NCBI GenBank assembly: GCA_024743215.1
Contig: JANSWZ010000002.1
Coordinates: 1-64,000 of the forward strand
DNA from: Alphaproteobacteria bacterium
Lineage (GTDB): Bacteria; Pseudomonadota; Alphaproteobacteria; Rhizobiales; GCA-2746425
Direction: 5' to 3'
DNA length: 64,000 nucleotides
Position 1 is the first letter of the stretch. Each line of letters opens with the position of its first letter. Positions 994 through 23,579 of this stretch are shown here, piece by piece. The notes beneath the pieces were generated by a model that worked only from the letters and a program-made list of their open reading frames with translations, made no database searches and was not told the origin of the DNA. Position numbers and translations under genes: made by a program.

Positions 994-1322
994 AGTTCAC
1001 CTTCTTCTGTGTTGGTGAGTTGTTCTTGCCTTGCCGCGTCTTCCAACTGTTGCTGGATTTCGCGAGGCATTCGCAGATGGTGGAGAATTCGTGCCATCAC
1101 GAACCTCTTGCCTTCTGCAAATCTCAATTCCGCATCGCCGGTATCAGCCAGTGAAACGCGGTAATATCCTGTTTGATTAGCCAGATCGGTTAGGACCAAA
1201 TCCCTGTCTTGCTGTGTGGCGTTGCCTTCGACCAAGACCCGGCGATATGCACCGGTCATCAACAGCCGCGCGGGAGCGCTCCTGCGCAAACCTTGCGCGA
1301 ATAGAGCCCTGAATCTGATCAT
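990..1322 (-). CDS. Bbp19-like phage structural protein
   Basis: A 110-residue basic protein with the segment GDAELRFAEGKRFVMARILHHL. It resembles the small Bbp19 family first named in Bordetella phage BPP-1 and found between portal and scaffold genes of podoviruses. Its biochemical role is unknown; a head or connector accessory role is inferred from position only. It overlaps the portal gene by one base (TAATG) and the scaffold gene by four, so it belongs to a tightly coupled morphogenesis operon. Confidence 0.65.
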   Translation of the reverse strand: MIRFRALFAQGLRRSAPARLLMTGAYRRVLVEGNATQQDRDLVLTDLANQTGYYRVSLADTGDAELRFAEGKRFVMARILHHLRMPREIQQQLEDAARQEQLTNTEEGEL

Positions 1323-3031
1323 TACTGAGCCAGTGCGCCCGTGAGCGCTGCCGAACCCTCAACAGCTTGTGCGCCCTCGCCAACAGCCTTAGCAGCCTCG
1401 CCGCCCGCCTGCGCCATCTGCATAGCCTGAACCATCTGCTGCCGTTGTTCTGTGGCTTCCTGTGCAGCCTGCAGTTCTTCTTCAGATTTAAACATGTTGG
1501 CAGGGCCACCAAACACCTTGCGGGCCGTGTCGAGCATTTGGTCTTCGTCAAACTTATCCATGATTTTCGGATTCTGCTTCAATTCCGCAATGGTTGCACC
1601 AAATTCCAACGTGCGTTGCATACCGGTCACCTCGCCAGAGCGGCGCATGCGATCAAGCGGCGTATCCATCTGCACGGCGATGTCTTTGCCCTGCATCGCA
1701 TCTGGAAGAGCAAGCGGTTGCTCCGGCTCAAACGCCCCTTGATCTGCCAAATACTGTGTTTCAACATCCACCAAACGGGCGATGCCTGTGTAAAGCGAGG
1801 CTGCAGCAGGCCCGAGCAACTGGCCCTTTTCTTCTGCGCGTATCAACGCTTCTGTTGCTGTCATCTTTGGCGAATTGATCAGCATTTGCCAGAGATTGAC
1901 GTACAGACTTTCTTTGATCTGCTCGCGCTTGAGTTCAAGAACGCTCTGCGCGAAATCAGGACGCGGCGCAGTGACAATCGGGGCAACCAACAAACGACCC
2001 TCAGCAGACATCAGACCCGGATTGTTTTTGCCCGGATTGAGGTTCACACGGCCAAAACCATCATCAATGCTGGCGGTAGGCGGGTTTACGGCTTGCTGTG
2101 ACGCCATCAGAGCGTCTTTCGACAACGCATTGAGGCTTTTCACCTCAGCGAGCGCCAACGCCATGGGTCCTTCCGAATAGGCCTCATGACCCATCTGGTT
2201 CCAATGGTAGACCACATACGGAAATGCGTTGTAGCCACCTTCAAACAGCAGATGCTTGGTCTTCTTCTCGAAATAGAACTCAGCCCAAGGCGCATTCCGT
2301 CGTGTGTTCAGCCCCGAACCACGTTCAGAGCGTGGCAACACGGCATGGACAAGTTCAATGCGTTCGTCTTTTTTCTTCGCGTTAGATGCCTTTTCCTTCA
2401 CATCAGCAGAGCATTTATCGCCCCACTTTTGAACGCATTGCGCAGCGGTCTTTGTGAAGCACCGAAAATTGGTATCAACGATCCCCTCATAGTTGGTTGC
2501 CAGATAACTTTCCGACAATTGAACATATCGATAGGACATCGGAGCGCTTGAGCCGCGCTGCAGGTTCTCACTGACAAACTGAACGCCAGTCCCCAACGCC
2601 CACATCGCACGAAGTGCTGACTTGTGGGAAATCCAAAAGCCCGTTTGCGGGTTGTTGCGCATCGTGTGCAGGTAGTTGGCGAACTTCTCCGACCATTCAT
2701 CGGTTGCCTGATCGCTTTCACCGGCCAGCGCATCAACGCCCGCAATGCCGTGCCACGTTTCCGATTGCGGCGTAATCAGCGACATAAAGCCAGAAACACC
2801 GCGATCAACAGCCCAAAGGCTGGTGGTGTCATAGATGGACTTTGAACGTTCAGCACCTTTCGGCCCATTTGCCCATCGGTCGATTGATCCAGCACCATTG
2901 TTGAATAGCCGGTCAAAGCGATCCACATTCGGCAGCGCATAGGTAGCCACGTCATACCAATGCCCTTCCCACTGGTGGCGATCCTTGGCTAATCCCGCCT
3001 GCCTATCCAGCAGGTCGTCGATAACGCCCAT
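1322..3031 (-). CDS. Podovirus portal (head-tail connector) protein
   Basis: A 569-residue protein resembling the T7 gp8-type portal, the dodecameric ring at one capsid vertex through which DNA is packaged and ejected. The N-terminus has the RHQWEGHWYDVATYALP stretch typical of this family. The C-terminal third is Gln/Glu/Ala-rich and helical (EELQAAQEATEQRQQMVQAMQMAQ), as expected for the crown or barrel of podoviral portals. Length fits the usual 500-600 residues. It is coupled to neighbours on both sides through TAATG overlaps. The gp8-like type, rather than a siphovirus portal, indicates a short-tailed virion. Confidence 0.88.
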   Translation of the reverse strand: MGVIDDLLDRQAGLAKDRHQWEGHWYDVATYALPNVDRFDRLFNNGAGSIDRWANGPKGAERSKSIYDTTSLWAVDRGVSGFMSLITPQSETWHGIAGVDALAGESDQATDEWSEKFANYLHTMRNNPQTGFWISHKSALRAMWALGTGVQFVSENLQRGSSAPMSYRYVQLSESYLATNYEGIVDTNFRCFTKTAAQCVQKWGDKCSADVKEKASNAKKKDERIELVHAVLPRSERGSGLNTRRNAPWAEFYFEKKTKHLLFEGGYNAFPYVVYHWNQMGHEAYSEGPMALALAEVKSLNALSKDALMASQQAVNPPTASIDDGFGRVNLNPGKNNPGLMSAEGRLLVAPIVTAPRPDFAQSVLELKREQIKESLYVNLWQMLINSPKMTATEALIRAEEKGQLLGPAAASLYTGIARLVDVETQYLADQGAFEPEQPLALPDAMQGKDIAVQMDTPLDRMRRSGEVTGMQRTLEFGATIAELKQNPKIMDKFDEDQMLDTARKVFGGPANMFKSEEELQAAQEATEQRQQMVQAMQMAQAGGEAAKAVGEGAQAVEGSAALTGALAQ

Positions 3032-3237: not shown

Positions 3238-3763
3238 TTTTGATGATCTCCGAATATCGGCGTAATTGGCGTAGGATTTGTTTCAGTCGGCCTTTGTGCC
3301 AGGCGAATAGAATGAACTGCTCACCGTTGCGGCCTAGATCGTGCAGCGGACCTTCTTCAATTGCGCCGGCTGATTTGAGCCACCGATGTGCCTCGGCATG
3401 GCCAACGAATGAGCGCGCCTCTATGCGTGTGACGCCCCGAGCGATCCAGTCGCGCAGAAGGTTGTCCCTGATCCACAATGTGAGTGAGTGAATAACTTTG
3501 CGGCTGTCATCGGTACCAAAAGCCCAGGCATTCAGCGCATTACCGGCCAGCGTCATAGGATCGAAGCCAAACACCATCACGGGTTTGCCGTTCAGATACG
3601 CAATGAAACTTGTTCCTGGACGGGTGCAGATGTAGCCAATTTGTTGCTGTGTGATGCCCTGCGGAAGCTGGCACATGATTTCTGTCTGGTCGTTCTGTCT
3701 CAGATTGCCCGCGATGTAGGAAACATCCCGGATATTGGCCGGACCAACCTCAAAACGCGCCAA
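3224..3763 (-). CDS. T7 gp13-like/GNAT-like phage protein
   Basis: A 179-residue protein with an acetyltransferase-like fold suggested by the pattern of strands and helices (SFIAYLNGKPVMVFGFDPM, then GVTRIEARSFVGHAEAHRWLKSAGA). This matches the DUF2833/T7 gene 13 group, which lies among podoviral structural genes and affects virion morphogenesis. Whether it binds acetyl-CoA is not evident; the usual Q/RxxGxG/A loop is not convincing. It overlaps terL by 14 bases and so is in the same late operon. Confidence 0.62.
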   Translation of the reverse strand: MARFEVGPANIRDVSYIAGNLRQNDQTEIMCQLPQGITQQQIGYICTRPGTSFIAYLNGKPVMVFGFDPMTLAGNALNAWAFGTDDSRKVIHSLTLWIRDNLLRDWIARGVTRIEARSFVGHAEAHRWLKSAGAIEEGPLHDLGRNGEQFILFAWHKGRLKQILRQLRRYSEIIKNVHV

Positions 3764-5081
3764 GGGGATCGGCCATGTCGGCGTGGCTTTGGTGGTTGCT
3801 GTAATCCGTAGCGGAAACCATCATGGTCGGTGTGACCCGTTCAGCGAAAGTGAGCGACAGCGCATCTCCAAGATCCGGCGATGGAATACCGCGTTTTTTC
3901 ATGTCGTCTTTCTTTTCAAGCTGAATGCGGTTGTTTACATCGTAGCTGTATTCAGGGCCGAGCAGATCGAATTCCAGCTCAGGATTCGGCAGAATGGACC
4001 CGCGATCCTTGAGCCAGTCGCGCATGCGGCCCCAGCATTCAGCGCGCTTGTTGTAGTAGCGTGAGCTATCTGTCGCCCGACCACCGGCATTCACATCAAC
4101 AACACGCAAGCCCAACTGCCTTAGCCGGTCCACGACACCACCACCGACGCCCACACCATCAACAAATATGCGGTCCGGGCGGGCTCTGGCTGCAATCTCA
4201 GCAACCTTCGATGCCGTTTGCATCGTGTCCAGACCCTTCCATTTGGTCAGTTGCATAAGCTTGTCGCCGTGGCGGATAGCCAGCGCAGAGCGGTCATCAC
4301 CAAACCGTGCAACATCCAGCCCGAATATCACCGGTTTCAACGGGTCTGCCATTGTCCGATCAAGAGCCTGCCCGATGTGCTCATATGTGATGAATTGAAC
4401 GGCTTCAGCGGCTTCGAAAGAGCAATAATACTCTTGCTGAATTTTCTCTTCCGACATGCCGGAATCGCGTTCTTCCTGAATTTGCGCTTCAGTCAGAACC
4501 TTCGTGTCATCAACGGTCAGGCGCTCAAAGAACCATTCCGGGTTCTTCTGCGCCATAACGGCCATTTGATAGGCATGGTTGCGCCCGCGCGGCGTTGTGT
4601 TGAACCAAGCCCAACCGCCGTTTTCAAGCAAGATAGGGCGAATGAAATCCCATGCTGTAGGGTTTGTCAGCGCCCATTCTGAGAAGATTACGCCAACCGG
4701 GTTTGCGCCAACCAGACTATCGTAATTATCCGCTCCTGCCAGTTGCCACATGGAGCCGTTCTTGAACTCGACAAGCATTTCATCGTCGCGTTTTTTGGCT
4801 CTCAGTTCTTCAGGAAATGCCTGATCGACCATCTTGCGGCCTTGGCGATCCACATTGTTCCACACAACCTTGCGGGCCTGTGTTTGTGTGGGAAGCAAAT
4901 GCCAGTAAACGCCAGGACGGCGGAACATTTCCTTGGCGGCGTAATTCAGCCCGGCAGAATCTTTACCGGCACGACGATGCCAGAGCGACATCGCCCGTTT
5001 ACCGCCGCCATCCAGATAGGACATGACCGGGATTTGATAGTCTCGCGGGTTCCAGTCATGCGGCAGTGTTATTTCAGGCAT
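3750..5081 (-). CDS. terL: Terminase large subunit (packaging ATPase-nuclease)
   Basis: A 443-residue motor that cuts and pumps DNA into the procapsid. The ATPase domain has Walker A WHRRAGKDSAG at about residues 34-44, Walker B VGVIFSEW at about 129-136, and a coupling TTPRGR motif near 162. The RNase H-like nuclease domain has its acidic residues in FGLDVARFGDD (near 253-263), IFVDGVGVGGG and SPDLGDALSL. All key residues appear present and the length is normal. It overlaps the small subunit by eight bases. The nuclease motifs are of the general TerL type and the packaging mode cannot be read from the sequence. Confidence 0.95.
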   Translation of the reverse strand: MPEITLPHDWNPRDYQIPVMSYLDGGGKRAMSLWHRRAGKDSAGLNYAAKEMFRRPGVYWHLLPTQTQARKVVWNNVDRQGRKMVDQAFPEELRAKKRDDEMLVEFKNGSMWQLAGADNYDSLVGANPVGVIFSEWALTNPTAWDFIRPILLENGGWAWFNTTPRGRNHAYQMAVMAQKNPEWFFERLTVDDTKVLTEAQIQEERDSGMSEEKIQQEYYCSFEAAEAVQFITYEHIGQALDRTMADPLKPVIFGLDVARFGDDRSALAIRHGDKLMQLTKWKGLDTMQTASKVAEIAARARPDRIFVDGVGVGGGVVDRLRQLGLRVVDVNAGGRATDSSRYYNKRAECWGRMRDWLKDRGSILPNPELEFDLLGPEYSYDVNNRIQLEKKDDMKKRGIPSPDLGDALSLTFAERVTPTMMVSATDYSNHQSHADMADPLGAF

Positions 5082-5610
5082 CAGTGTTTGGGCCAGATTT
5101 TGAATAGTCTATAACCCGAACCCCAACCTCTCCGGAATGTTGCACCTTTTCAACGAACATGCCGAGGTGTTTGGCGATCTTTTCGAGCGCCGAATTCTTA
5201 TCCCACATTTTGATTTTGTGAGTGTGGTCGACAACCTTGCGCCCGTCTGCATCTTTGCCAAAATCACCGGTATTTGTAACAACCTCAATTGAGGAAACCG
5301 CCGCTGCAAAATCATCATCCCAATCTAGTGGGTTGAGCAACGCGCCGTTTGGTGTGAGCGCTTGGCGGATATCGGATGTTCCGATGCGGACCAGTTCTTT
5401 CAGCGTGCGGGCAATGTCGATTTCCGCACGTTCCGCACCAGCTTCAACCAATTCCTCAAATCGGGCTTGAATGTTTTCATTTGTTTTCAATCGTCCAGCA
5501 TTGCAGCGATTGGGCTTATAGCCAGCCTCTATGTACGCTTGATTCGATGTGAGGCCCTTTGCAAGCCCTTGTGCGAAAGCTTCGTGACGTTGGTTGTTTA
5601 GGATTGGCAC
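5074..5610 (-). CDS. terS: Terminase small subunit
   Basis: A 178-residue DNA-recognition subunit. The N-terminal helix-turn-helix (QRHEAFAQGLAKGLTSNQAYIEAGYKP, about residues 7-33) is the classic Terminase_2 signature. It is followed by a helical oligomerisation region and a C-terminal stretch (WDKNSALEKIAKHLGMF) shared with many small terminases. It is the first gene of the leftward packaging/head operon and overlaps terL by eight bases. It faces away from the membrane protein at 5730, with about 120 bases between them that should contain the late promoter unless transcription arrives from the nusG-like gene upstream. Confidence 0.9.
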   Translation of the reverse strand: MPILNNQRHEAFAQGLAKGLTSNQAYIEAGYKPNRCNAGRLKTNENIQARFEELVEAGAERAEIDIARTLKELVRIGTSDIRQALTPNGALLNPLDWDDDFAAAVSSIEVVTNTGDFGKDADGRKVVDHTHKIKMWDKNSALEKIAKHLGMFVEKVQHSGEVGVRVIDYSKSGPNTDA

Positions 5611-5729: not shown

Positions 5730-6515
5730 ATGTCTACATCAAAGATAAAGTTGAGTTTGGTTGTAAAGGCTCGAATGTTAGCCCGACAAGAAGTGCTAAG
5801 AGACAAAGCTTTAGACACCAACATATTTGATAACAGCCTGATCCTCGGACTAATAGAACAGAACGGGAAACTGCGCCATCAGATGTATTCTATGACGCGT
5901 AACGCAGTTTTTTTACTCTTTCTCGCATTCGTTGCTTTGAGTGGGGGCGATATCACTATCCCCGGCACCGGTTCCAAAATTGGAGATATTCCGGCGTTCT
6001 TTGAAATCTCGCTCGTACTTTGCGCAATTCAACTTTCTTTCATTCCGGTCCAATTTTTAAGCACTCAATTGTATGCAGGAGTGATCTCCGTTTTTATTGA
6101 GGCTAGATCGGCAGACGGGTCAGTGGATCATGATTTGGTCAATGCGTCCAAAGAGCCCGTTTGGTTGTTTGTCAAGTATGCCACATCACCAATTACGGTT
6201 AGGCGACCAGATGCCTATGAAATCTCGGAGGTGGGCCGGATTTTTTACGCACTGATGGTTGCGTCATTTAGCATTTTGATTTTGTCTGCGTACCTGATGA
6301 TCAATGTTTCAATGCTATACCTTGCGCACTTTGGTCTATCGGACAGTTTTGTCCAATGGTGTATTTATATCTTCTGCTGGTTCTGTTTTGCGGTTGTTGT
6401 TTTTGGGGCTATTGGGAACGGGATTGCGTTCACACATACGACACGTGAAGAATTGATTCTTGAGGATCCGATGTATTCGATGAACGGAGAGGAGGCGGTC
6501 GAAAAGGATGATTGA
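5730..6515 (+). CDS. Four-helix membrane protein, probable phage cargo gene
   Basis: A 261-residue protein with no recognised family. Hydrophobic segments occur near residues 58-75 (NAVFLLFLAFVALSG), 88-112 (FFEISLVLCAIQLSFIPVQFL), 168-192 (IFYALMVASFSILILSAYLMI) and 205-230 (FVQWCIYIFCWFCFAVVVFGAIG). The ends and the loop of about 50 residues between helices 2 and 3 are polar. It points against the late operon in the gap between packaging and early genes, a common place for morons, and its base composition looks more AT-rich than the flanks. Superinfection exclusion or defence is possible but unproven. Confidence 0.7.
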   Translation: MSTSKIKLSLVVKARMLARQEVLRDKALDTNIFDNSLILGLIEQNGKLRHQMYSMTRNAVFLLFLAFVALSGGDITIPGTGSKIGDIPAFFEISLVLCAIQLSFIPVQFLSTQLYAGVISVFIEARSADGSVDHDLVNASKEPVWLFVKYATSPITVRRPDAYEISEVGRIFYALMVASFSILILSAYLMINVSMLYLAHFGLSDSFVQWCIYIFCWFCFAVVVFGAIGNGIAFTHTTREELILEDPMYSMNGEEAVEKDD

Positions 6516-6615: not shown

Positions 6616-6642
6616 GCGCTGCACTGGTTCGCAGCGCGAACC
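6616..6642. other. Two mutually exclusive stem-loops
   Basis: Arms GGTTCGC (6626-6632) and GCGAACC (6636-6642) form a seven-pair hairpin. The segment 6631-6637 (GCAGCGC) can instead pair with GCGCTGC at 6616-6622, also seven pairs. Only one structure can form at a time. No T-run follows the hairpins on either strand, so neither is a simple intrinsic terminator. The pair lies between the membrane-protein gene and the nusG-like gene. Confidence 0.45.
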
Positions 6643-6678
6643 ATGATCAACCAATAACGACCATCGGGTCATCTGGGG

Positions 6679-6747
6679 CGTGACAGTTGCGTTCTGTTGG
6701 GGGCGGTTTGGCTACCGCTCAGCCGTTTTACGCTGATCCCTGTCACG
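6679..6747 (-). other. Structured three-way-junction-like element with ops-like core
   Basis: A perfect eight-pair outer stem (CGTGACAG 6679-6686 with CTGTCACG 6740-6747) encloses two hairpins: GCGGT/ACCGC (6703-6707 with 6714-6718) and TCAGC/GCTGA (6719-6723 with 6732-6736). It lies 19 bases past the stop of the nusG-like gene. Read on the minus strand, the first hairpin contains GCGGTAGC (6711-6718), identical to the hairpin-forming core of the RfaH ops site. It could act as RNA or DNA; whether it is transcribed is not known. Confidence 0.5.
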
Positions 6748-6765
6748 TCATTACTCTTTTCCGAA

Positions 6766-7401
6766 CTATGCGGCCTTCTCCAAATTGTCAAGCCCGATTT
6801 CAACTTCTTGCGTCCCGCCGAACAGTTCCAGCAGAATGCGTGCATGGCTCCCTTTGATCGTTTTCACGTCCACGATGTTGCCATCAAAAGGTCCACTGAC
6901 GATCTGGACACGGTCCCCAATTTTGAACTCGTGATGTGTCCGCATAAACCGTTCTTCGTCAGCCGCACCAAATCGAAATTTGTTTTCGGTGATGAACCTA
7001 TTCAGGCGATTTCCATCCAGGGCGACAGGGTAGCCATTGGCACCCAACACGCCGTACAAATTGGGCGCTCGTTGGAATACTTCGTACCAATTTTCTTGCC
7101 CGCGCTCAAACCCAAGGAACAAGCTTCCCGCGATTGCCGGATAGGCAATGCGGACCTTTTCTCGACGGTAACGGTTAACACGTCGCCACTTCTGGCAGAG
7201 TGGCAGATACGGAACCGCTCCGACACGCTTCAACAATTTCTGGGCTATGAATTCCTTGCCGGACAAAACAAAGCCCGCATACCAAACACGGTCGGTATCG
7301 ACCATCGACGCCCGCGCTTCCCTGTTCGTTCGGCGTGCGCCCTGCTCCAAAGCTTCGCGTCGGCTGGCGGTTGGTTCAATCTTTTTGCGGCGATCTGTCA
7401 T
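6766..7401 (-). CDS. Phage-encoded NusG/RfaH-family antitermination protein
   Basis: A 211-residue paralogue of NusG, the RNA polymerase-binding elongation factor. An NGN domain spans about residues 38-140 (RVWYAGFVLSGKEFIAQKLL, then the YRREKVRIAYPAIAGSLFLGF strand typical of NusG). A KOW domain lies at about 158-211 (FKIGDRVQIVSGPFDGNIVDV). A basic 35-residue leader precedes the NGN. The ATG at 7401 is chosen because AAGGA stands eight bases upstream; a GTG at 7431 has no good site. It is the last gene of the leftward early operon and lies upstream, on the same strand, of the late operon. A processive antiterminator role is inferred. Confidence 0.85.
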   Translation of the reverse strand: MTDRRKKIEPTASRREALEQGARRTNREARASMVDTDRVWYAGFVLSGKEFIAQKLLKRVGAVPYLPLCQKWRRVNRYRREKVRIAYPAIAGSLFLGFERGQENWYEVFQRAPNLYGVLGANGYPVALDGNRLNRFITENKFRFGAADEERFMRTHHEFKIGDRVQIVSGPFDGNIVDVKTIKGSHARILLELFGGTQEVEIGLDNLEKAA

Positions 7402-7434
7402 CAGTTCGTCCTTTCCAATTTCTGCCAACACTCG

Positions 7435-7635
7435 CCGGACATCGGGGGCCTCTTAAGAGGGCTCCCCGAAATGTCCGGTTGCGTCTGTGTTCCGTGTCCG
7501 CCGGACAAAACCTTTATGTCCGGTTGATTTGCTTTATTTTCCAGATAGTTAGGTCGTTTTTGGGTTCTTGCCGGACATTTCCGTTTTGTCCGGCAAACGC
7601 TGAAATGAAATTCTTTTTGTCCGGCAAATGTCCGG
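7435..7635. repeat. Cluster of TGTCCGG repeats with long palindrome (possible origin or operator)
   Basis: Eight exact TGTCCGG heptamers lie in 201 bases. Direct copies start at 7472, 7517, 7587, 7618 and 7629; inverted copies start at 7435, 7501 and 7571. A one-mismatch copy (TGTCCGC) starts at 7495. Several pair as inverted repeats, for example 7495-7507 and GCCGGACA/TGTCCGGC at 7570-7577/7587-7594. The segment 7435-7478 is an extended palindrome around CCTCTTAAGAGG. AT-rich sequence (7641-7680) adjoins. It lies between the helicase gene and the nusG-like gene. It could be an iteron-type replication origin or a regulatory site for the nusG-like gene; no coding is convincing here. Confidence 0.75.
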
Positions 7636-7674
7636 CATATCGGTAAACTTTTATTAACTTCATAGAATATTTTT

Positions 7675-9645
7675 CTAATCATCGTTTTCGCCCTCTGGTC
7701 CAAAGAAGCCGTCGACCGTATTCAACCACCCATCATTTTCGACAACCAGTTCCTTCTTTTTTAGTTCCTGAAGGGACCGCTTGAACTGATCAGCGTTTTC
7801 AAAATCACCTTCTGCCAGCACCAGATTGCGCAGTGTGTCCCGGTCAATAGGTGCTTCCTGCGCGATCAGATCGTACAGCGCCGCCTGTTTCCCTTTCAGC
7901 GGCTTTTCTTCCACGACAGGCGCGGCGCAAGCGTCGAAGACCAGGCTTGTCATTTCGTCATCGTCAAAGCCGCCGACGATGATTTCCCGCCCTTCAAACC
8001 ACGTCGCTGCCGGTTCCTTGGCGTCTTTCATCTTGGTGCAGGACAGACAGGCCGTCATACCCATTTCCGTCTTGTCCACGCGGTATTCAAAGTCCATGCC
8101 ACCTTTGAGCGCCGTCGCGCCCCTGGCGCGTTCCTTGTGGCTGTGGCCGGTATGGTGAACGATCATGACGGTTGCCCCGAAGCGAGCGCGCAAAAGACCG
8201 TCAACGTGGTTCAGGAAGACACCCATGTCGGTGTTGGAATTTTCATCACCGCCGCCGAAATTCCGGGCCAGTGTGTCGATCACGATCAACGCCGGTTCCG
8301 GGGCTTTCCTGGTGATAGCCTGGACGGCTTCCACCACGTCGGCGGCACTCTCCGCATCATAGAATTGCGCGGCTTGCGCACTGGCATAGATCGGCAGATC
8401 AGCCAGTTGCACGCCGTGGTGCCGTTCCCAGGCTGCGAAGCGTCTGGCAAGACCACCATGGCCTTCACCGGCAATGTATATCACCGGGCCTTGTTTCACC
8501 GCGTGGCCGTGCCAGTCTTTACCGGCAGCGACATGGAACGCCATATCGAGCGCGATGAACGATTTGAATGAGCCGGGATCGCCGAATATCAGCCCCGTGG
8601 TATCCTCTTCCAGAAAGTCTTTGATGCGCCAATTGATAGGGCCAAGTTTGGCAAGCACTTCATGCGCATGGATCAAATGGAACTTGGTTTGTTTCGGCCT
8701 TGTGCGCTTTTGGTATTCCCGTTTGGCCAATTGCAGGATCGTGGCGGCGGTTACGGGATTTGTGCCACGCAAGTCCGCGTCAAACGACCGCCAGCGACCG
8801 CGCATGGTGTTGGGCTCGTACTTGACGCCTTCTGAACTCCAACTATCCCAGAGCGCGAAACCGGCATCGTCACCGTCGCACTGGTGGTAGAGCGCCATGC
8901 CGATGCGCACCCAATCGTGCATGCGCATATCCGGGTCCAGATAGGTCAAAGACCTTTCAAGCTGGGTATACGTCACATCTGCTTTCGGCTTGGCGTGCGC
9001 AAGGATGCGCTCGGCAGCAGGGATAGATTTGTCAACTTTGAGGGACGTGCGGGCATTGTCGACCAGTTCCCAATCATCCGGAATGATGGTCTCGAAATAG
9101 TCGACCAGTTCTTGCGCCTGATCGGCTGATATCGTGGGTAAATCGCTGATCGCGGTTTCCGCCAGATTGTGTTCCGACACCCATTCATAGGGCTTGCCGG
9201 TATCGGGATGCGTGGCAAATGCAACGAATTGCTGCCCGTCACCCAGAATTTCAACTTTGTGTTCAAGGCCAAGGAAATCGACATATTTCTTACTGGCGAT
9301 CTTTGAAAACGGTTCGTCTGTCCGGTAGACAAGCAACTGTTTTGGGGGCTTCCCGACGCGCTGAACGGTCCGGCCGATTTTTGATTTGCACCACTCAATC
9401 AGCTTGTCCACGATTTCAGGATCTTGAACGTCCAGATCAACCGCGGGGATTTCACGGGTTAGAACACCGACACCGCCCCGAATGAAGCCATTGGACAACC
9501 AACCCTGTAAAAGATTCTCGTTCGCGACCGTCTTTTGCCAACCGTCAAATCCCGGATATTTCGTATTGGGTTTGATTGGTATGATGGGATAGCCGGCTTG
9601 AAGCAGTGGCGGGCCATAGGTCGCGAGGAAGGATGCCTTTGTCAT
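7675..9645 (-). CDS. Bifunctional primase-polymerase/replicative helicase
   Basis: A 656-residue fusion. The N-terminal archaeo-eukaryotic-type Prim-Pol domain (about residues 1-190) has the metal-site pattern AVDLDVQDPE and the PIIPIKPNTKYP opening. A PriCT-2-type linker follows at about 225-310 (HDWVRIGMALYHQ). A RepA/AAA_25 RecA-like ATPase follows, with Walker A GDPGSFKS, Walker B ALIVIDTLARNF and a VMIVHHTGHS segment. It should lay primers and unwind phage DNA. Its ATG overlaps the stop of the methyltransferase-like gene (ATGA), and it lies directly upstream of the TGTCCGG cluster, consistent with an adjacent origin. Confidence 0.88.
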   Translation of the reverse strand: MTKASFLATYGPPLLQAGYPIIPIKPNTKYPGFDGWQKTVANENLLQGWLSNGFIRGGVGVLTREIPAVDLDVQDPEIVDKLIEWCKSKIGRTVQRVGKPPKQLLVYRTDEPFSKIASKKYVDFLGLEHKVEILGDGQQFVAFATHPDTGKPYEWVSEHNLAETAISDLPTISADQAQELVDYFETIIPDDWELVDNARTSLKVDKSIPAAERILAHAKPKADVTYTQLERSLTYLDPDMRMHDWVRIGMALYHQCDGDDAGFALWDSWSSEGVKYEPNTMRGRWRSFDADLRGTNPVTAATILQLAKREYQKRTRPKQTKFHLIHAHEVLAKLGPINWRIKDFLEEDTTGLIFGDPGSFKSFIALDMAFHVAAGKDWHGHAVKQGPVIYIAGEGHGGLARRFAAWERHHGVQLADLPIYASAQAAQFYDAESAADVVEAVQAITRKAPEPALIVIDTLARNFGGGDENSNTDMGVFLNHVDGLLRARFGATVMIVHHTGHSHKERARGATALKGGMDFEYRVDKTEMGMTACLSCTKMKDAKEPAATWFEGREIIVGGFDDDEMTSLVFDACAAPVVEEKPLKGKQAALYDLIAQEAPIDRDTLRNLVLAEGDFENADQFKRSLQELKKKELVVENDGWLNTVDGFFGPEGENDD

Positions 9646-10322
9646 GCAGCAATCCCCATGTCATCGGCGGTGCCGCCCCATTGGCCAGCCATTGCGTCGG
9701 CCATACAAGGAAAAAACCGGCTTCGTTCTTTGCCGCGATCACCACTTGGTGACATGCGCCAGACCCGGTTCCACGCTTTCCACTCCTCTGACCCTTTTTC
9801 GGGCTCTGGTAGACGATCTGTCTCGATGAGATTTGGAAGCCCGCGCGTGTACCAGCCAGTCGCCTTGTATTCGGGATGACCGAACTGAAAGGGCTGTACG
9901 ATATGGGGCTTCGGAAGGTCCGGCGGCATGTGTGAACGGGCGATATCGTGCATAACCGGATTCTCGATAGCCACGCGGTCAATGGGCGCATTCCAACAAC
10001 TGACGAACAGATCGACCCCACCATTGAATTCATCAATCATACTCTGCCATGTGCGGCCCTTTGGGAGCTTTTTGGGCGGGGTCATGTGGCCGGGGCCTGA
10101 CAACCATCTGCGACCAGAGCGGCATAGGCGCGTACAAGGTGGATGCGCGACAATCATCAAGTCCCAACCGTCATCGAGAATGTCCCGAACGTCACCGGTT
10201 ATGTGGCGGTTCGATCCATCTTCACTTGGCAAAAGATCACACGACCACGCGTCGTGGCCGTGGGCCAGGAATGCGCGCCGGACAATCCCGGAGTACTCGC
10301 AGGCGACAAGAACACGCGCCAT
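9642..10322 (-). CDS. DNA cytosine methyltransferase-like phage protein
   Basis: A 226-residue protein with a Rossmann-like start (VLVACEYSGIVRRAF, motif I-like), a HPPCTRLCRSG segment resembling the PPCQ catalytic motif IV of C5-cytosine methyltransferases, and IENPVMHDIA resembling motif VI (ENV). No target-recognition domain is evident, so it is shorter than a typical C5 enzyme. Such proteins are common hypotheticals in phages; DNA modification is plausible but not established. The start is the ATG overlapping the upstream stop (ATGA); a GTG one codon earlier is also possible. Confidence 0.6.
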   Translation of the reverse strand: MARVLVACEYSGIVRRAFLAHGHDAWSCDLLPSEDGSNRHITGDVRDILDDGWDLMIVAHPPCTRLCRSGRRWLSGPGHMTPPKKLPKGRTWQSMIDEFNGGVDLFVSCWNAPIDRVAIENPVMHDIARSHMPPDLPKPHIVQPFQFGHPEYKATGWYTRGLPNLIETDRLPEPEKGSEEWKAWNRVWRMSPSGDRGKERSRFFPCMADAMAGQWGGTADDMGIAA

Positions 10323-10768
10323 CACACATCCCCACGCGCCAGATGTGTTTCCAGTGCTGTAAGCTGTTCAGCCAAGCCCCCGACACGTTGACGCAATATC
10401 GGCATTTCTGTGTGATCAATCCGGCCATCTTCCAGAAAGCGGGACAGGTGCGCGCTGAACTCCAGCGCTTCTGATAGAAGCCGTTGCGGCGTTATATCGG
10501 TCGGGTCAGTCGATTTGACCTCATAAGACAGATGCTCGATTGTCGCCGCGAAGAATGCCTGTCCAAGCACCGCACAAAGCGATTGGTATTTCTCGATGGT
10601 CGGTGTCGCCTGCCCGGATCGGTAGCTTTCCACTGTGCGTAATGCGATGCCGGTTGCCTCGGATACAGAAGCACACGACCAGCGCCGCCCCTGCCCTACA
10701 AACAGCCGCATAGCATCGTGAAACTTTTGATAAGCAAGTTCCTGCGGAACAATGGTGGCGTTGGTCAT
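10322..10768 (-). CDS. Phage helix-turn-helix early regulator
   Basis: A 148-residue protein with an N-terminal helix-turn-helix (WSCASVSEATGIALRTVESYRSGQATPTIEKYQSL, about residues 30-65) and a helical C-terminal region of about 70 residues ending in a heptad-like segment (LRQRVGGLAEQLTALETHL) that could mediate oligomerisation. It follows the Cro-like gene with an ATGA overlap. Position and size recall CII-type or replication regulators, but no specific family is recognised. Confidence 0.6.
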   Translation of the reverse strand: MTNATIVPQELAYQKFHDAMRLFVGQGRRWSCASVSEATGIALRTVESYRSGQATPTIEKYQSLCAVLGQAFFAATIEHLSYEVKSTDPTDITPQRLLSEALEFSAHLSRFLEDGRIDHTEMPILRQRVGGLAEQLTALETHLARGDV

Positions 10769-10977
10769 TGATGCGCCTCGCCGATTGCGGGATCATCAAC
10801 CCAACTGGACGCGGGAACCGTGCCACCTGTCATCTGTTCGATGCGTACAGCAAGTTCAAGCGACGGGCGTCGTTGCCCCGAGAGAAGTTGTGAAAGATAG
10901 GCTTGAGACACCCCAAGTTGTCGGGACACATCAAGTTGTGGGCGGACGGATAGATGTTTTTGGGCTAAAGTGTTCAT
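10765..10977 (-). CDS. Cro-like transcriptional regulator
   Basis: A 70-residue single-domain XRE-type protein. The helix-turn-helix is VSRQLGVSQAYLSQLLSGQRRPSLELAVRIEQM. It is the first gene of the leftward operon and divergent from the CI-like gene. Its start codon lies seven bases after the -10 of the strong leftward promoter, so the mRNA may be nearly leaderless. The size and the divergent position support a Cro role: repressing at the operators to favour lytic growth. No effector domain is present. Confidence 0.75.
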   Translation of the reverse strand: MNTLAQKHLSVRPQLDVSRQLGVSQAYLSQLLSGQRRPSLELAVRIEQMTGGTVPASSWVDDPAIGEAHQ

Positions 10978-10984
10978 GCCGCAA

Positions 10985-11041
10985 AATATTGCACATAGCT
11001 ATATTTCTGTCAATTATAAGAAATTGCTGGGAGCTATAAAA
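10985..11041 (-). promoter_or_regulatory. Leftward early promoter with CI/Cro operators
   Basis: On the minus strand TTGACA (11008-11013), a 17-base spacer and AATATT (10985-10990) form a good sigma-70 promoter firing toward the Cro-like gene. The spacer overlaps the operator TTGCACATAGCTATATTT (10989-11006). A second, weaker copy, TTGCTGGGAGCTATAAAA, lies at 11024-11041, toward the repressor gene. The same motif recurs in the rightward control region. Confidence 0.78.
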
Positions 11042-11089
11042 TTGCTGCTATCTAATTGCCCTACACCAACGTGCGCGTACCATTGGGGC

Positions 11090-11701
11090 ATGAAATACAA
11101 AATCAAAAAAATCCGGAAAGAAAGAGGGCTTACGCAGGCCGCCGTTGTTGAGGCGGCCAGCATTTCGCAACCCTATCTATCCCAGCTGGAAAACAGTTCT
11201 GGCGGGCGCGCGCCGTCCATGGATACGTTGATCGCAATTGCCGAAGTATTGAACGTGCGACCAAGTGAGTTATTCGATGATGCCAAACCTGTCGCCATAG
11301 CAGGCAAGGTTGGTGCCGGAGCCAGGGTGCCTTTGGTGGATGCCTATGAAAAAGGCGACGGCCTGTATCTCGTGGCGTGCCCATCTGAGTTACCGCACGA
11401 CATAAGTATCGTCGGCGTTGAGGTCGAGGGCGACAGTATGACCCCGGTCTACAGAGACGGCGATGTACTTTTCTACTCTCGCGACGTGATCGGTGTACCG
11501 ACTGAAGCCGTTGGCGCCATCTGTGTCTGCGAAGATGAAAACGGAAACGGCTGGGTCAAGCACGTCAAGCCGGGCAGCGAGCCCGGAAAGTTCCACCTGA
11601 TCAGCCTAAATCCCTTGGTAGATAACATGTTCGATATCACTCTGAAATGGGCGACGCCAGTACGTCTTGCGTGGCCCCGAGCGCTGGTTGAACGCCTTTA
11701 G
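11090..11701 (+). CDS. CI-like LexA/S24-type phage repressor
   Basis: A 203-residue repressor. An XRE DNA-binding domain (about residues 3-63, GLTQAAVVEAASISQPYLSQLE) is joined to a LexA-like peptidase domain. The catalytic pair is Ser116 in GDSMTPVYRDGD and a Lys near 157 in WVKHV. An Ala-Gly bond at 71-72 is the likely self-cleavage site, so induction by RecA/SOS is expected. The ATG at 11090 is chosen because the domain begins there; upstream in-frame codons overlap the operators. No clear Shine-Dalgarno site is seen. A terminator follows at 11741. Confidence 0.9.
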   Translation: MKYKIKKIRKERGLTQAAVVEAASISQPYLSQLENSSGGRAPSMDTLIAIAEVLNVRPSELFDDAKPVAIAGKVGAGARVPLVDAYEKGDGLYLVACPSELPHDISIVGVEVEGDSMTPVYRDGDVLFYSRDVIGVPTEAVGAICVCEDENGNGWVKHVKPGSEPGKFHLISLNPLVDNMFDITLKWATPVRLAWPRALVERL

Positions 11702-17463: not shown

Positions 17464-18693
17464 CTAACAACCTTCAGGTTTTCCTTCATTTTTTGCGGCC
17501 TCATAAGCTGGACGCAAAGCGGGATCGCAACGGGGTGGCGGTCGTTTGAATGGCAGACCCTCAGCGCCCGCACTGATTTGAGGCGGGCGATCTGCCCAAC
17601 CCCAAGCAGTTTGTATTTGGATTTGGGTGAGGTTTTTAGTGCAAACCACTGCAGATCCAGCCGCGCTTTTCCTGCAAAATACAGTACCCGACAAATTTGC
17701 ATCCAACAAATCGGCACCCGCCAAATCGGCTCCCGCCAAATCGGCACCCGTCAAATCGGTATCCGACAATTTGGCACCCGTCAAATCAGCACCCGACAAA
17801 TTGGCACCCGACAAATTGGCATCCGACAAATCAGCAGCCGACAAATTGGCACCCGACAAATTGGCATCCGACAATTTGGCAATCAACAAATTGGCACCCG
17901 TCAAATTGGCATCCGACAAATTGGCCCCCATCAAATCAGCAACCGACAAATTGGCACCCGACAAATAGGCACTCGTCAAATAGGCACCTATCAAATTGGC
18001 ACCCGTCAAATTGGAACCCGACAAATCGGCGCCCGGCAAAAAGGAATCCGACAAATCGGCATCCGACAATTCGGCACCCGACAAGTTAGTATTGACCAAC
18101 AAGGAACCCGACAAACGGGCAGACCGCAAATTGGAACCCGACAAATTGGAACCCGACAAACGGGCTTTTGGCAATTCAAGATTCCTGAGCCATGTTTTTC
18201 TAGAACACCTCTCAGCACCTGTGTCCCAACCACCCATCGTTGCACACGACAGATCAATCCCGCGCAGGGATTGTCTAGCCCTGTTGAGGGCTTCAAGCGC
18301 TTCTATTTTTCCCGAATTCCCCGGCGCTTTGGTCGTCAAAATTTGCCAAGCTTGGATGACTTGGTTGCGCTCAATTTCATTTCGGGCGATTTCCAAACTC
18401 GTATGCGAAAGCTCAGTTTGTCGTCGGGTCTCCGCAAGGCCGTCAAGCGCCAACTTGGATTGTTGTTTTGTTTCCTCCAAGGCGGCTCGGGTCAACTGAT
18501 TGTTTTGAACAGTCTCCAACAGCGCCCATATCGCGATAGCAAATCCACAAACCTCAAGCACTCGCCAAAGGAAAATTGGTCGAACCCTAAATCGCCAAAC
18601 GCCTGTTTTGGGTTCGACAATCTCTACCCGTTGAACTTGAGAGCGGTGCTTGAATTTCGCATTCGCCAAGCGTCGTTTTGCTACTTTATTCAC
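17464..18693 (-). CDS. Membrane-anchored pentapeptide-repeat protein, antisense cargo
   Basis: About 409 residues. There is a basic N-terminus, one membrane helix (about residues 40-58, VLEVCGFAIAIWALL), a coiled coil (60-115), and a conserved linker (QAWQILTTKAPGNSGKIEALEAL). About 33 tandem A(D/N)LXX pentapeptides follow (about 168-336), which should fold as a right-handed quadrilateral beta-helix. A Cys/Pro-rich tail ends it. The start is uncertain: a GTG at 18693 with AAGGA upstream is preferred over a TTG at 18753. It is convergent with the polymerase (13-base gap) and divergent from the VRR-nuclease. It is probably expressed in the lysogen; function unknown. Confidence 0.82.
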   Translation of the reverse strand: MNKVAKRRLANAKFKHRSQVQRVEIVEPKTGVWRFRVRPIFLWRVLEVCGFAIAIWALLETVQNNQLTRAALEETKQQSKLALDGLAETRRQTELSHTSLEIARNEIERNQVIQAWQILTTKAPGNSGKIEALEALNRARQSLRGIDLSCATMGGWDTGAERCSRKTWLRNLELPKARLSGSNLSGSNLRSARLSGSLLVNTNLSGAELSDADLSDSFLPGADLSGSNLTGANLIGAYLTSAYLSGANLSVADLMGANLSDANLTGANLLIAKLSDANLSGANLSAADLSDANLSGANLSGADLTGAKLSDTDLTGADLAGADLAGADLLDANLSGTVFCRKSAAGSAVVCTKNLTQIQIQTAWGWADRPPQISAGAEGLPFKRPPPRCDPALRPAYEAAKNEGKPEGC

Positions 18694-18755
18694 CGAATAA
18701 CACCCCAAATCCTTACATCGACTTACCCAAACACATTTGAATTCGAGGCTCAACC

Positions 18756-22237: not shown

Positions 22238-22568
22238 ACACATTGTTCAGTACGTGAAAGCGCGGGATCTGGCCACAATCACCGGCTTCACGCCCCGGTA
22301 TTTTACAGAACTTGCAGCAACAGGTAGGATTCCGGGTGCGCACCAACCGACAGGCCCCGGTGGCGCTTGGCGTTTTGATCTTACAAAGTTCCGCGAATGG
22401 TGGAACTCAACCGAATCTAAGGTGTCTCCGATATGGCAAGCGTCTACAAACGAGGGAGCACCTATTGGGGCAAGATACAGCGGCAAAACCGAGTTTTCCG
22501 ACAGTCCCTTAAAACAAAGAGTAGATCAGAGGCTGAGCGCCGTCTTAGGCAATGGGAATCGGACCTAG
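22230..22568 (+). CDS. Excisionase-like helix-turn-helix protein
   Basis: A 112-residue basic protein with a winged helix-turn-helix near the N-terminus ([29 protein letters not shown]), followed by [15 protein letters not shown], the classic pattern of MerR-like excisionases that read DNA through the wing. It lies directly upstream of and overlaps the integrase start by 136 bases in another frame, so the two are translationally linked. It probably sets the direction of site-specific recombination. Confidence 0.72.
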
Positions 22569-23461
22569 AAGCGATTGCATGGGGCGACAGACCCAAACTG
22601 GAATTCGACAAGGCTATCATTTCTTTCATTGACGATTACCTGCCGACACTAAAGCCCCAGAGCGCACGCCGATACGCGGTATCAATCAGAAACCTTGTCC
22701 CTTCCTTTGAGGGCAAGTTTCTCCATAAGATCGGATCAAAGGAACTATCTGACTTTGAAACGCTCAGACGGACGCAAGGCGTGTCATCGCCAACAATTAT
22801 CCGGGATCTGGCCTGCCTTTCCTCTATGTTCACATTTGCAGAGGACCGGGAGTGGATCGAGGGTAATCCCGTAAAGATCTATCTGAGGCGGCGATCAAGG
22901 CGCGGACTAAAGAACGCGCCGCCAAGAACCAAGTATTTGACCATCGAACAGGAACACGCGCTGCTGCACCATGCAAAAGGGCCGATGAGAGACGCCATCA
23001 CCCTGGCGATCGATACCGGCATGCGCTGCGAAGAACTGCTGTCCTTGAAATGGAACCAGGTTGATCTGCGCAATGGAACGGTCTCAACAACAACGGACAC
23101 AAAAACAGGCACAGCCCGCACAGTACCGTTGTTGCCCCGCGCAATGGACGTCCTAGGGCGCATGCCCAGAAACATCAGAAGCCAGTATGTTCTTTGCCAT
23201 GGAGACGGTGCGCGCTTTACCACATTCCGCAAGGGGTTTGGTTCTGCAGTGAAGAATGCCGGGCTTTCAGATGTGCGCTGGCACGACCTACGCAGAACCT
23301 GCGGTTGCCGATTATTACAAGAACACAAGATGAAACTGCACGAAGTCTCAATGTGGCTTGGGCACAAGTCAATCAAGACAACAGAATCAACCTACGCGTT
23401 CTTGCGGATAGAGAACCTGAAAGATGCCGTCACAAAAACGGGCACAGGACACGCGGATTGA
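22433..23461 (+). CDS. int: Tyrosine-family phage integrase
   Basis: A 342-residue site-specific recombinase. It has an arm-binding-like N-terminus ([25 protein letters not shown]), a SAM-like core-binding domain (about 65-160) and a catalytic domain. Active residues are Arg in DTGMRCEELLSL, Lys in TKTGTARTVPL, His-x-x-Arg in WHDLRRTCG, His in WLGHKSIKTTE and the nucleophile Tyr in STYAFL. All are present, so it is likely active. AAGG lies about ten bases before the ATG. It ends 43 bases from the 3' end of tRNA-Phe, its presumed target. Confidence 0.95.
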   Translation: MASVYKRGSTYWGKIQRQNRVFRQSLKTKSRSEAERRLRQWESDLEAIAWGDRPKLEFDKAIISFIDDYLPTLKPQSARRYAVSIRNLVPSFEGKFLHKIGSKELSDFETLRRTQGVSSPTIIRDLACLSSMFTFAEDREWIEGNPVKIYLRRRSRRGLKNAPPRTKYLTIEQEHALLHHAKGPMRDAITLAIDTGMRCEELLSLKWNQVDLRNGTVSTTTDTKTGTARTVPLLPRAMDVLGRMPRNIRSQYVLCHGDGARFTTFRKGFGSAVKNAGLSDVRWHDLRRTCGCRLLQEHKMKLHEVSMWLGHKSIKTTESTYAFLRIENLKDAVTKTGTGHAD

Positions 23462-23504: not shown

Positions 23505-23579
23505 TGGTGCCCGGGGGCGGATTTGAACCACCGACACGCGGATTTTCAATCCGCTGCTCTACCCCTGAGCTACCCGGGC
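23505..23579 (-). tRNA. tRNA-Phe (GAA), presumed prophage attachment site
   Basis: A complete cloverleaf on the minus strand. Acceptor arms are GCCCGGG (ending at 23579) and CCCGGGC, with discriminator A and encoded CCA at 23505-23507. The anticodon stem GCGGA/TCCGC encloses loop TTGAAAA, anticodon GAA. The T loop is TTCAAAT. The 3' end faces the integrase, so the attachment core should lie in the 3' half of this gene, and the prophage restores an intact tRNA at this junction. Confidence 0.95.

Follow-up and report, generated by a model that had tools for sequence, protein, structure and literature searches.

A prophage in the window (the whole stretch of 64,000 nucleotides analysed here) encodes a NusG-like protein, and directly behind the stop codon of its gene lies a noncoding element that is conserved, in its letters and in its base pairing, behind related genes elsewhere. 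We consider it probable, on comparative grounds, that both parts belong to a phage-specific system of processive antitermination, in which the NusG paralogue and its cognate leader RNA would together gate the late operon. The computed basis consists of the protein family, the gene order, an element that is conserved, covaries and is linked to the paralogue, and the terminators found in two element classes, here called A and C. The element of the window belongs to a third class, B. The features concerned are collected in Table 1.

Table 1. Features of the prophage around the nusG-like gene (positions in the window).
Feature	Position	Strand	Remark
NusG-like protein (NGN + KOW), PHROG 6386	6766-7401	-	last gene, leftward early operon
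Class B element (proposed leader RNA), directly 3' of the nusG-like stop codon	6645-6753	-	covariance model R2 matches 6642-6753
P1 outer helix, 5' arm, pairs with 6679-6686	6740-6747	-	one both-side change versus L008
P1 outer helix, 3' arm	6679-6686	-	
P2 inner hairpin	6703-6718	-	without covariation support; 1/5 pairs lost in L008
P3 3' hairpin, then TATTGGTTGA	6656-6673	-	two pairs changed on both sides, window versus L008
Promoter-like letters TTGACA-17-TAGTTC, site equivalent to the promoter of L078	6763-6791	-	8/12 by reading
Cro-like regulator (PHROG transcriptional repressor families)	10765-10977	-	opens the leftward early operon
CI-like repressor (HTH + S24 peptidase)	10970-11701	+	divergent
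Prim-Pol / AAA helicase	7675-9645	-	early operon, upstream of the nusG-like gene
Terminase small subunit, terS	5074-5610	-	first known late gene downstream, presumed target operon
Terminase large subunit, terL	3750-5081	-	
Head-tail adaptor (connector) protein	1322-3031	-	late operon

The nusG-like gene starts with ATG and encodes 211 amino acids. A sequence-only reading of this DNA had claimed an NGN and a KOW domain for this protein, and the domain searches confirmed it. Firstly, the NGN domain is found by Pfam PF02357 at residues 39-136 (30.7 bits, cut-off 22.2). Secondly, the profile of PHROG 6386, 'transcription antiterminator', matches residues 31-210 (1.4e-19), as it matches all 35 relatives gathered in alignment A11, and the profile made from these 35 aligns across both NGN and KOW with E. 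coli NusG as present in solved complexes (6gov, 3.9e-33). In the single protein the KOW domain stays below the Pfam threshold (PF23290, 17.1 bits, cut-off 27); the C-terminal KOW is supported by the alignment to TIGR00922, which spans residues 102-209. The KOW phenylalanine that we take to be E. coli F165, the contact to S10/Rho, aligns with the F of LFGG in the window protein, as read from the alignment.

In the case of the label 'NusG/RfaH-type', membership in the NusG family stands, but a narrower wording is needed because the protein passed none of the NCBIfam cut-offs: housekeeping NusG (TIGR00922, 27.8 bits, cut-off 135.7), RfaH (TIGR01955, 20.4 bits, cut-off 144.5), LoaP (NF033641, 34.6 bits, cut-off 125) and UpxY (NF033644, 41.4 bits, cut-off 100). 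A separate housekeeping NusG is present in the host genome (G000, contig C7, 617-928). In a tree of 49 rows this host protein falls into a clade of its own with 10 rows, apart from the window protein (support 99/99).

The early genes at 10977-7675(-) overlap end to end and comprise the Cro-like regulator, one gene without a family match, a DNA methyltransferase-like gene and the Prim-Pol/helicase gene; after a gap of 273 nt the nusG-like gene follows, which agrees with its earlier placement as the last gene of the leftward early operon. terS, terL and the head genes lie downstream on the same strand, also as previously read, with two corrections: an ORF on the plus strand intervenes, and the late operon is cut. 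The latter holds because position 1 of the window is the start of contig C4, so that the left end of the prophage is cut as well. The intervening ORF (5730-6515(+), 261 amino acids) matches neither Pfam nor PHROG and has hydrophobic stretches; it is oriented against the late operon and follows the RNA element on the way to terS. An integrase gene (22433-23461(+)) adjoining a tRNA-Phe gene at 23505-23579, the latter being the likely attachment site, suggests where the prophage ends on the right. The earlier statement that no N- or Q-type antiterminator is visible holds in so far as no such PHROG family is among the matches listed for the 18 other window proteins that were scanned.

Further observations concern other parts of the prophage. 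A pentapeptide-repeat protein (17464-18753(-), PF00805, 1.8e-53) is oriented against the surrounding prophage replication genes, and its gene is probably an accessory (moron) gene. Between the Prim-Pol and nusG-like genes, at 7434-7636, there are eight copies of CCGGACA/TGTCCGG in both orientations (counted by reading), together with a GC-rich palindrome at 7444-7465; these repeats look like an iteron-type replication origin. For TGTCCGGC the window has 14 occurrences where 2.7 are expected, a count reached in none of 100 shuffles. Different repeats were seen upstream of the nusG-like genes of two other loci, L006 and L007.

The class B element is noncoding. Its stretch 6753-6645 in the window corresponds to 9552-9660 of a viral contig, L008, with a DNA identity of 83% over 106 aligned bases. 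The nusG-like genes of both loci share 65% and the flanks of the element 52-58%, and 200 random pairs of 109 nt gave a median of 59% and a maximum of 74%. At 1e-6 the packaging proteins of the L008 locus, terminases included, had no BLASTP match in the window's prophage; across the rest of the two loci there is a weak match at the integrase (25%, 6.8e-7). Shadow ORFs opposite the nusG-like gene gave two further matches, which were set aside.

Base pairing in this element was then compared between the window and L008. In P1 and P3, three of 19 pairs changed on both sides and 97.4% of cells are paired, and no both-side changes appear when the pair partners are slid; with two rows the shuffle control is weak (58/500). 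The free folding of single sequences does not mark the element as unusual (z of -1.64 for the window and -0.39 for L008) and was discarded as evidence. A covariance model built from these two sequences (R2) finds a third locus, L078, at the corresponding place behind a nusG-like gene (46.9 bits, E 1.9e-11). There the P1 arms differ yet pair (TGTAACAA/TTGTTACA). A scan of the window's own genome with R2 at E up to 0.1 gave a single match. L003 carries the fourth protein of the clade, and behind its gene a P3-like hairpin and TATTGGT are seen by eye and in alignment A9; its membership is tentative because R2 gives 7.8 bits there, so that class B comprises three sequences (window, L008, L078) with L003 as a tentative fourth. 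L003 itself is a short contig in a Blastopirellula metagenome bin, with its close relative of the window gene beside a Terminase_2 gene; the host of the phage may differ from what the bin label says.

Similar arrangements were found with other elements. In the Nostoc phage Nsp-JY10 and the Sinorhizobium phage phi3LM21, the NusG is annotated as 'transcription antitermination protein' and its gene stands close before the terminase genes; these two phages share a noncoding element unlike that of class B, which defines class A. A 16-mer from class A noncoding DNA matched 64 stretches when scanned over viral contigs. At 44 of these 64 there is a NusG-like ORF (E up to 1e-3), in every case on the strand of the 16-mer and with its stop 141-169 nt upstream. 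Among the remaining 20, five (L023, L042, L044, L059 and L060, whose stored DNA starts 51-196 nt upstream of the 16-mer) carry the element according to model R1 (76-106 bits), and 15 are unrelated, seven of them by R1 scores of 18.5-25.4 bits and eight by flanks shared with the tested ones. L082, found by its protein only, has a class A element at 77.5 bits without the exact 16-mer.

In the case of class A, pairing could be judged on 28 of 40 cores: 89.1% of cells are paired, and both-side changes affect 33 cells, where shuffles gave 10.4 (none of 500 reached 33) and sliding the partners at most 20. This count used helices written from the alignment, of which helix 1 pairs in 70% of cells only, and the fold that RNAalifold derived from the complete downstream alignment was weak. 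An intrinsic terminator follows 120-290 nt after the stop codon in 37 of 41 class A loci (38 distinct ones plus L011, L012 and L082), where shuffles gave a mean of 0.36 and a maximum of 3 out of 41. Regarding the genes farther on, 99 of 121 downstream proteins were scanned, the 22 others being ORFs of six near-duplicate loci and five extra ORFs. They match HNH endonuclease families (up to 18 per family), small (15, 13 and 5) and large (up to 11) terminase subunit families and, in 11 cases including the first ORF of L014, a minor tail protein family.

A third group of loci (L004/L007, L005/L009 and L006), class C, has its own conserved stretch behind the nusG-like gene, with an intrinsic terminator at +95-99 in all three; its pairing was judged by eye, the base-pair counts covering classes A and B. 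Thus a conserved noncoding element lies directly behind the nusG-like gene in all three clades with several sequences, and intrinsic terminators follow it in two of the three classes. The tree of 49 rows groups the window protein with those of L008 and L078 (95/91), and with L003 and the long-branched L083 added (98/86), L004, L005 and L006 with each other (100/99), and the 23 rows of class A likewise (88/95). These groups correspond to classes A, B and C, which indicates that the element class follows the protein clade.

R1 has no match to the B or C elements and R2 none to the A or C elements, so that the three classes are without detectable homology and one common RNA for all of them was rejected. 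A known RNA family was also rejected, as eight loci (L001, which is the window locus, L003, L005, L006, L007, L008, L011 and L012) gave no Rfam match at the gathering threshold. It is important to add that ten further NusG-like loci, single examples each (L010, L079, L080, L081, L083, L085, L102, L114, L115 and L116), match neither R1 nor R2. At L114 the next reading frame starts as close as 11 nt behind the nusG-like stop, too near to accommodate an element; members of the family may therefore exist without one.

Further members of class B were searched for in several ways. Pattern scans returned the contig of L008 again and no new member, protein scans with L078 and L003 confirmed no relative, and a scan with alignment A5 added L114-L116. 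Three relatives came from a search of genome contigs. A threshold of E 1e-24 was passed by no protein but that of the window itself in five genomes of the family and 385 of the class (in the class, with up to eight candidates scored for each genome). In 297 genomes from the order, R2 found the window, the place of L078 in genome G066 (24.8 bits under stricter filters, versus 46.9 in the direct scan) and six matches at 18.4-21.3 bits; over 298 genomes of the class it found the window and two matches at 23.7 and 22.7 bits. R1 found, over 297 genomes, one match behind a NusG-like gene (G186, 77.5 bits) and three others at 24.3-25.6 bits, and in 299 genomes from the phylum (E up to 1e-4) G186 only. 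The weak R1 and R2 matches have no NusG-like ORF at any of their loci, and scores around 24 bits are therefore regarded as chance level.

From these comparisons a mechanism can be proposed. The NusG paralogue would be the last product of the early operon. As the polymerase passes the stop codon of the paralogue, the nascent RNA would fold into the element at 6753-6645; the paralogue would bind this RNA and, via its NGN domain, the elongating polymerase, replacing host NusG. A polymerase modified in this way would ignore the termination barrier before the late operon, and read-through would lead to transcription of terS, terL and the rest of the late operon. In classes A and C this barrier would be the intrinsic terminator. 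In the window, where no canonical intrinsic terminator lies in the 1200 nt after the gene, it is perhaps Rho-dependent termination over about 1 kb without an evident late gene; intrinsic terminators were found at none of the four class B loci, window included. RNA-guided loading and read-through are proposed because the anatomy of paralogue, folded leader, terminator and long operon resembles that of LoaP, and we infer RNA binding, recruitment to the polymerase and timing as well. The claim of the sequence-only reading that a NusG paralogue acts as early-to-late antiterminator thus gains comparative support, from elements in three clades and terminators in two classes, at the level of a predicted function.

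The input to this system could also be a separate promoter. In such a model, similar to lambda pR'-Q, the element would be the promoter-proximal leader of a separate late promoter situated where the nusG-like gene ends, with the paralogue loading there in early elongation; the protein-RNA pair would still work. This is suggested by L078, where a perfect sigma-70 promoter (2084-2112, TTGACA-17-TATAAT, 12/12) overlaps the end of the nusG-like reading frame exactly before the element, with its predicted start at about the first base of the RNA. A score of 12/12 was seen in two of 22,316 tiled 90-nt stretches, and the tiles included L078 and its copy L118. At L078 the element may therefore serve its own late promoter, as the 5' leader of a separate late transcript. 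Elsewhere the best scores are of a size common by chance: 8 of 12 in the window and in L008, 7 in L003, 7-8 in class C and 7-9 in class A. Around the nusG-like stop of the window no score better than chance was reached, and the TTGAC letters double as codons for a conserved Leu-Asp. The sequence-only reading had counted late transcription from a strong promoter of its own before terS against the antiterminator role: none of 9/12 or more lies on the minus strand between 5000 and 8000, yet L078 has a perfect one at the element. As a general explanation we regard the promoter model as rather unlikely.

A site of the RfaH/ops type within the element was weighed as well. The window element contains GAGCGGTAGCCA, which agrees in 9 of 12 letters with the E. 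coli ops site as printed in the available part of PMC8955417, and L005 and L012 also reach 9/12, elsewhere in their downstream DNA. However, this likeness is equalled by 4.2% of 109-nt stretches of the window and drops to 7/12 in L008, L078, L003 and L011, so that a conserved ops site was rejected; base pairing, unlike the ops letters, is kept through both-side changes, and the RfaH family cut-off was missed. An ops-type site is thus unlikely. Alternatively, the paralogue could be a general anti-Rho or host-takeover elongation factor, with the element controlling its own mRNA by 3' end protection or autoregulation. The element does lie in the 3' UTR of this gene, and proteins of the NusG family have general effects on termination according to the part of PMC7819879 at hand; this model leaves unexplained that the element class tracks the protein clade and that a terminator stands ahead of the late genes, and we give it little weight. 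The position of the element between the early region and terS in the window could also suggest a DNA signal belonging to the terminase region, such as a packaging site (cos/pac); this was rejected as highly improbable, because the distance to the nusG-like stop is nearly fixed whereas that to the terminase varies (terS is about 1 kb away in the window, the terminase genes about 5 kb in L008), because minor tail protein matches occur downstream of elements, and because the terminases of window and L008 have no BLASTP match despite the 83% identity of the element.

Returning to the two-part reading, phage antitermination of late genes is known mainly via Q-type proteins, and early control via N and put. 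Lambda Q acts at the end of the early phase. Like Q and AlpA/GafZ, the proposed system would carry transcription past a terminator into a late or target operon; unlike them, it has a NusG fold and a downstream element, where those factors load at a promoter DNA element (PMC11150451, as far as its available text goes). The RNA component is shared with other mobile-element antitermination, namely HK022 put RNA and conAn, with its ConAn1 protein and conAn2 RNA (available parts of PMC9378689 and PMC8955417). In these same parts put is described as acting by RNA alone, and ConAn1 is not called a NusG paralogue in that of PMC8955417; ConAn1 is set beside the window protein by description only. With RfaH/ops the system has in common a NusG paralogue acting on few operons, the difference being that here the ops-like letters are not conserved and the signal appears to be RNA.

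The likeness on which the proposal draws is that to LoaP of Bacillus velezensis (dfn/mln leader hairpin). According to the accessible portion of PMC12691694, the leader RNA hairpin bound by LoaP precedes an intrinsic terminator and is needed for its bypass, LoaP promoting read-through, and according to that of PMC7819879 loaP genes adjoin their target operons. Classes A and C share the combination of NusG paralogue, leader RNA and terminator, and a conserved structured element before the presumed target operon is found in the window too. The two also differ: antibiotic clusters there and phage genes here; one small UNCG hairpin there and an element of about 110-200 nt with several helices here; and class B, window included, lacks the intrinsic terminator. 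In the window no UNCG-type hairpin was found, as the loops of P2 and P3, read from the sequence, are not UNCG.

The strategy had also been called uncommon and little described. The introduction of PMC12691694, in its accessible portion, names TaA, UpxY, RfaH, ActX and LoaP; the available parts of PMC7819879 and PMC6391919 name no phage-encoded NusG family or RNA element; the words phage, prophage, virus and LoaP are all absent from PMC13015549; and the text of the phi3LM21 paper (PMC5537653) does not mention NusG. No description of a phage-encoded NusG system was found in the literature covered; subscription papers lay mostly outside this scope, and an earlier description is possible. 'Little described' therefore holds for the system, but phage NusG proteins were already catalogued as PHROG 6386, an entry that gives no cis element or mechanism, and annotated in two phages.

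Taken more widely, the chances are about even that a new class of phage antitermination is represented here, in which clades of NusG paralogues would each have their own large structured leader RNA to load the protein onto the polymerase, and protein and RNA would move as a single cassette between phages that are otherwise unrelated and set the early-to-late switch. One protein family would then have acquired three or more RNA families of separate origin. If the proposal is true, phage antitermination would gain a further kind, built on a NusG paralogue and a structured RNA dedicated to it, with the direct prediction that element and paralogue suffice for read-through. Research on NusG paralogues would gain three naturally varied classes of protein-RNA pairs beyond the chromosomal antibiotic and capsule operons, and PHROG 6386, a family known by annotation only, would gain a candidate target site.
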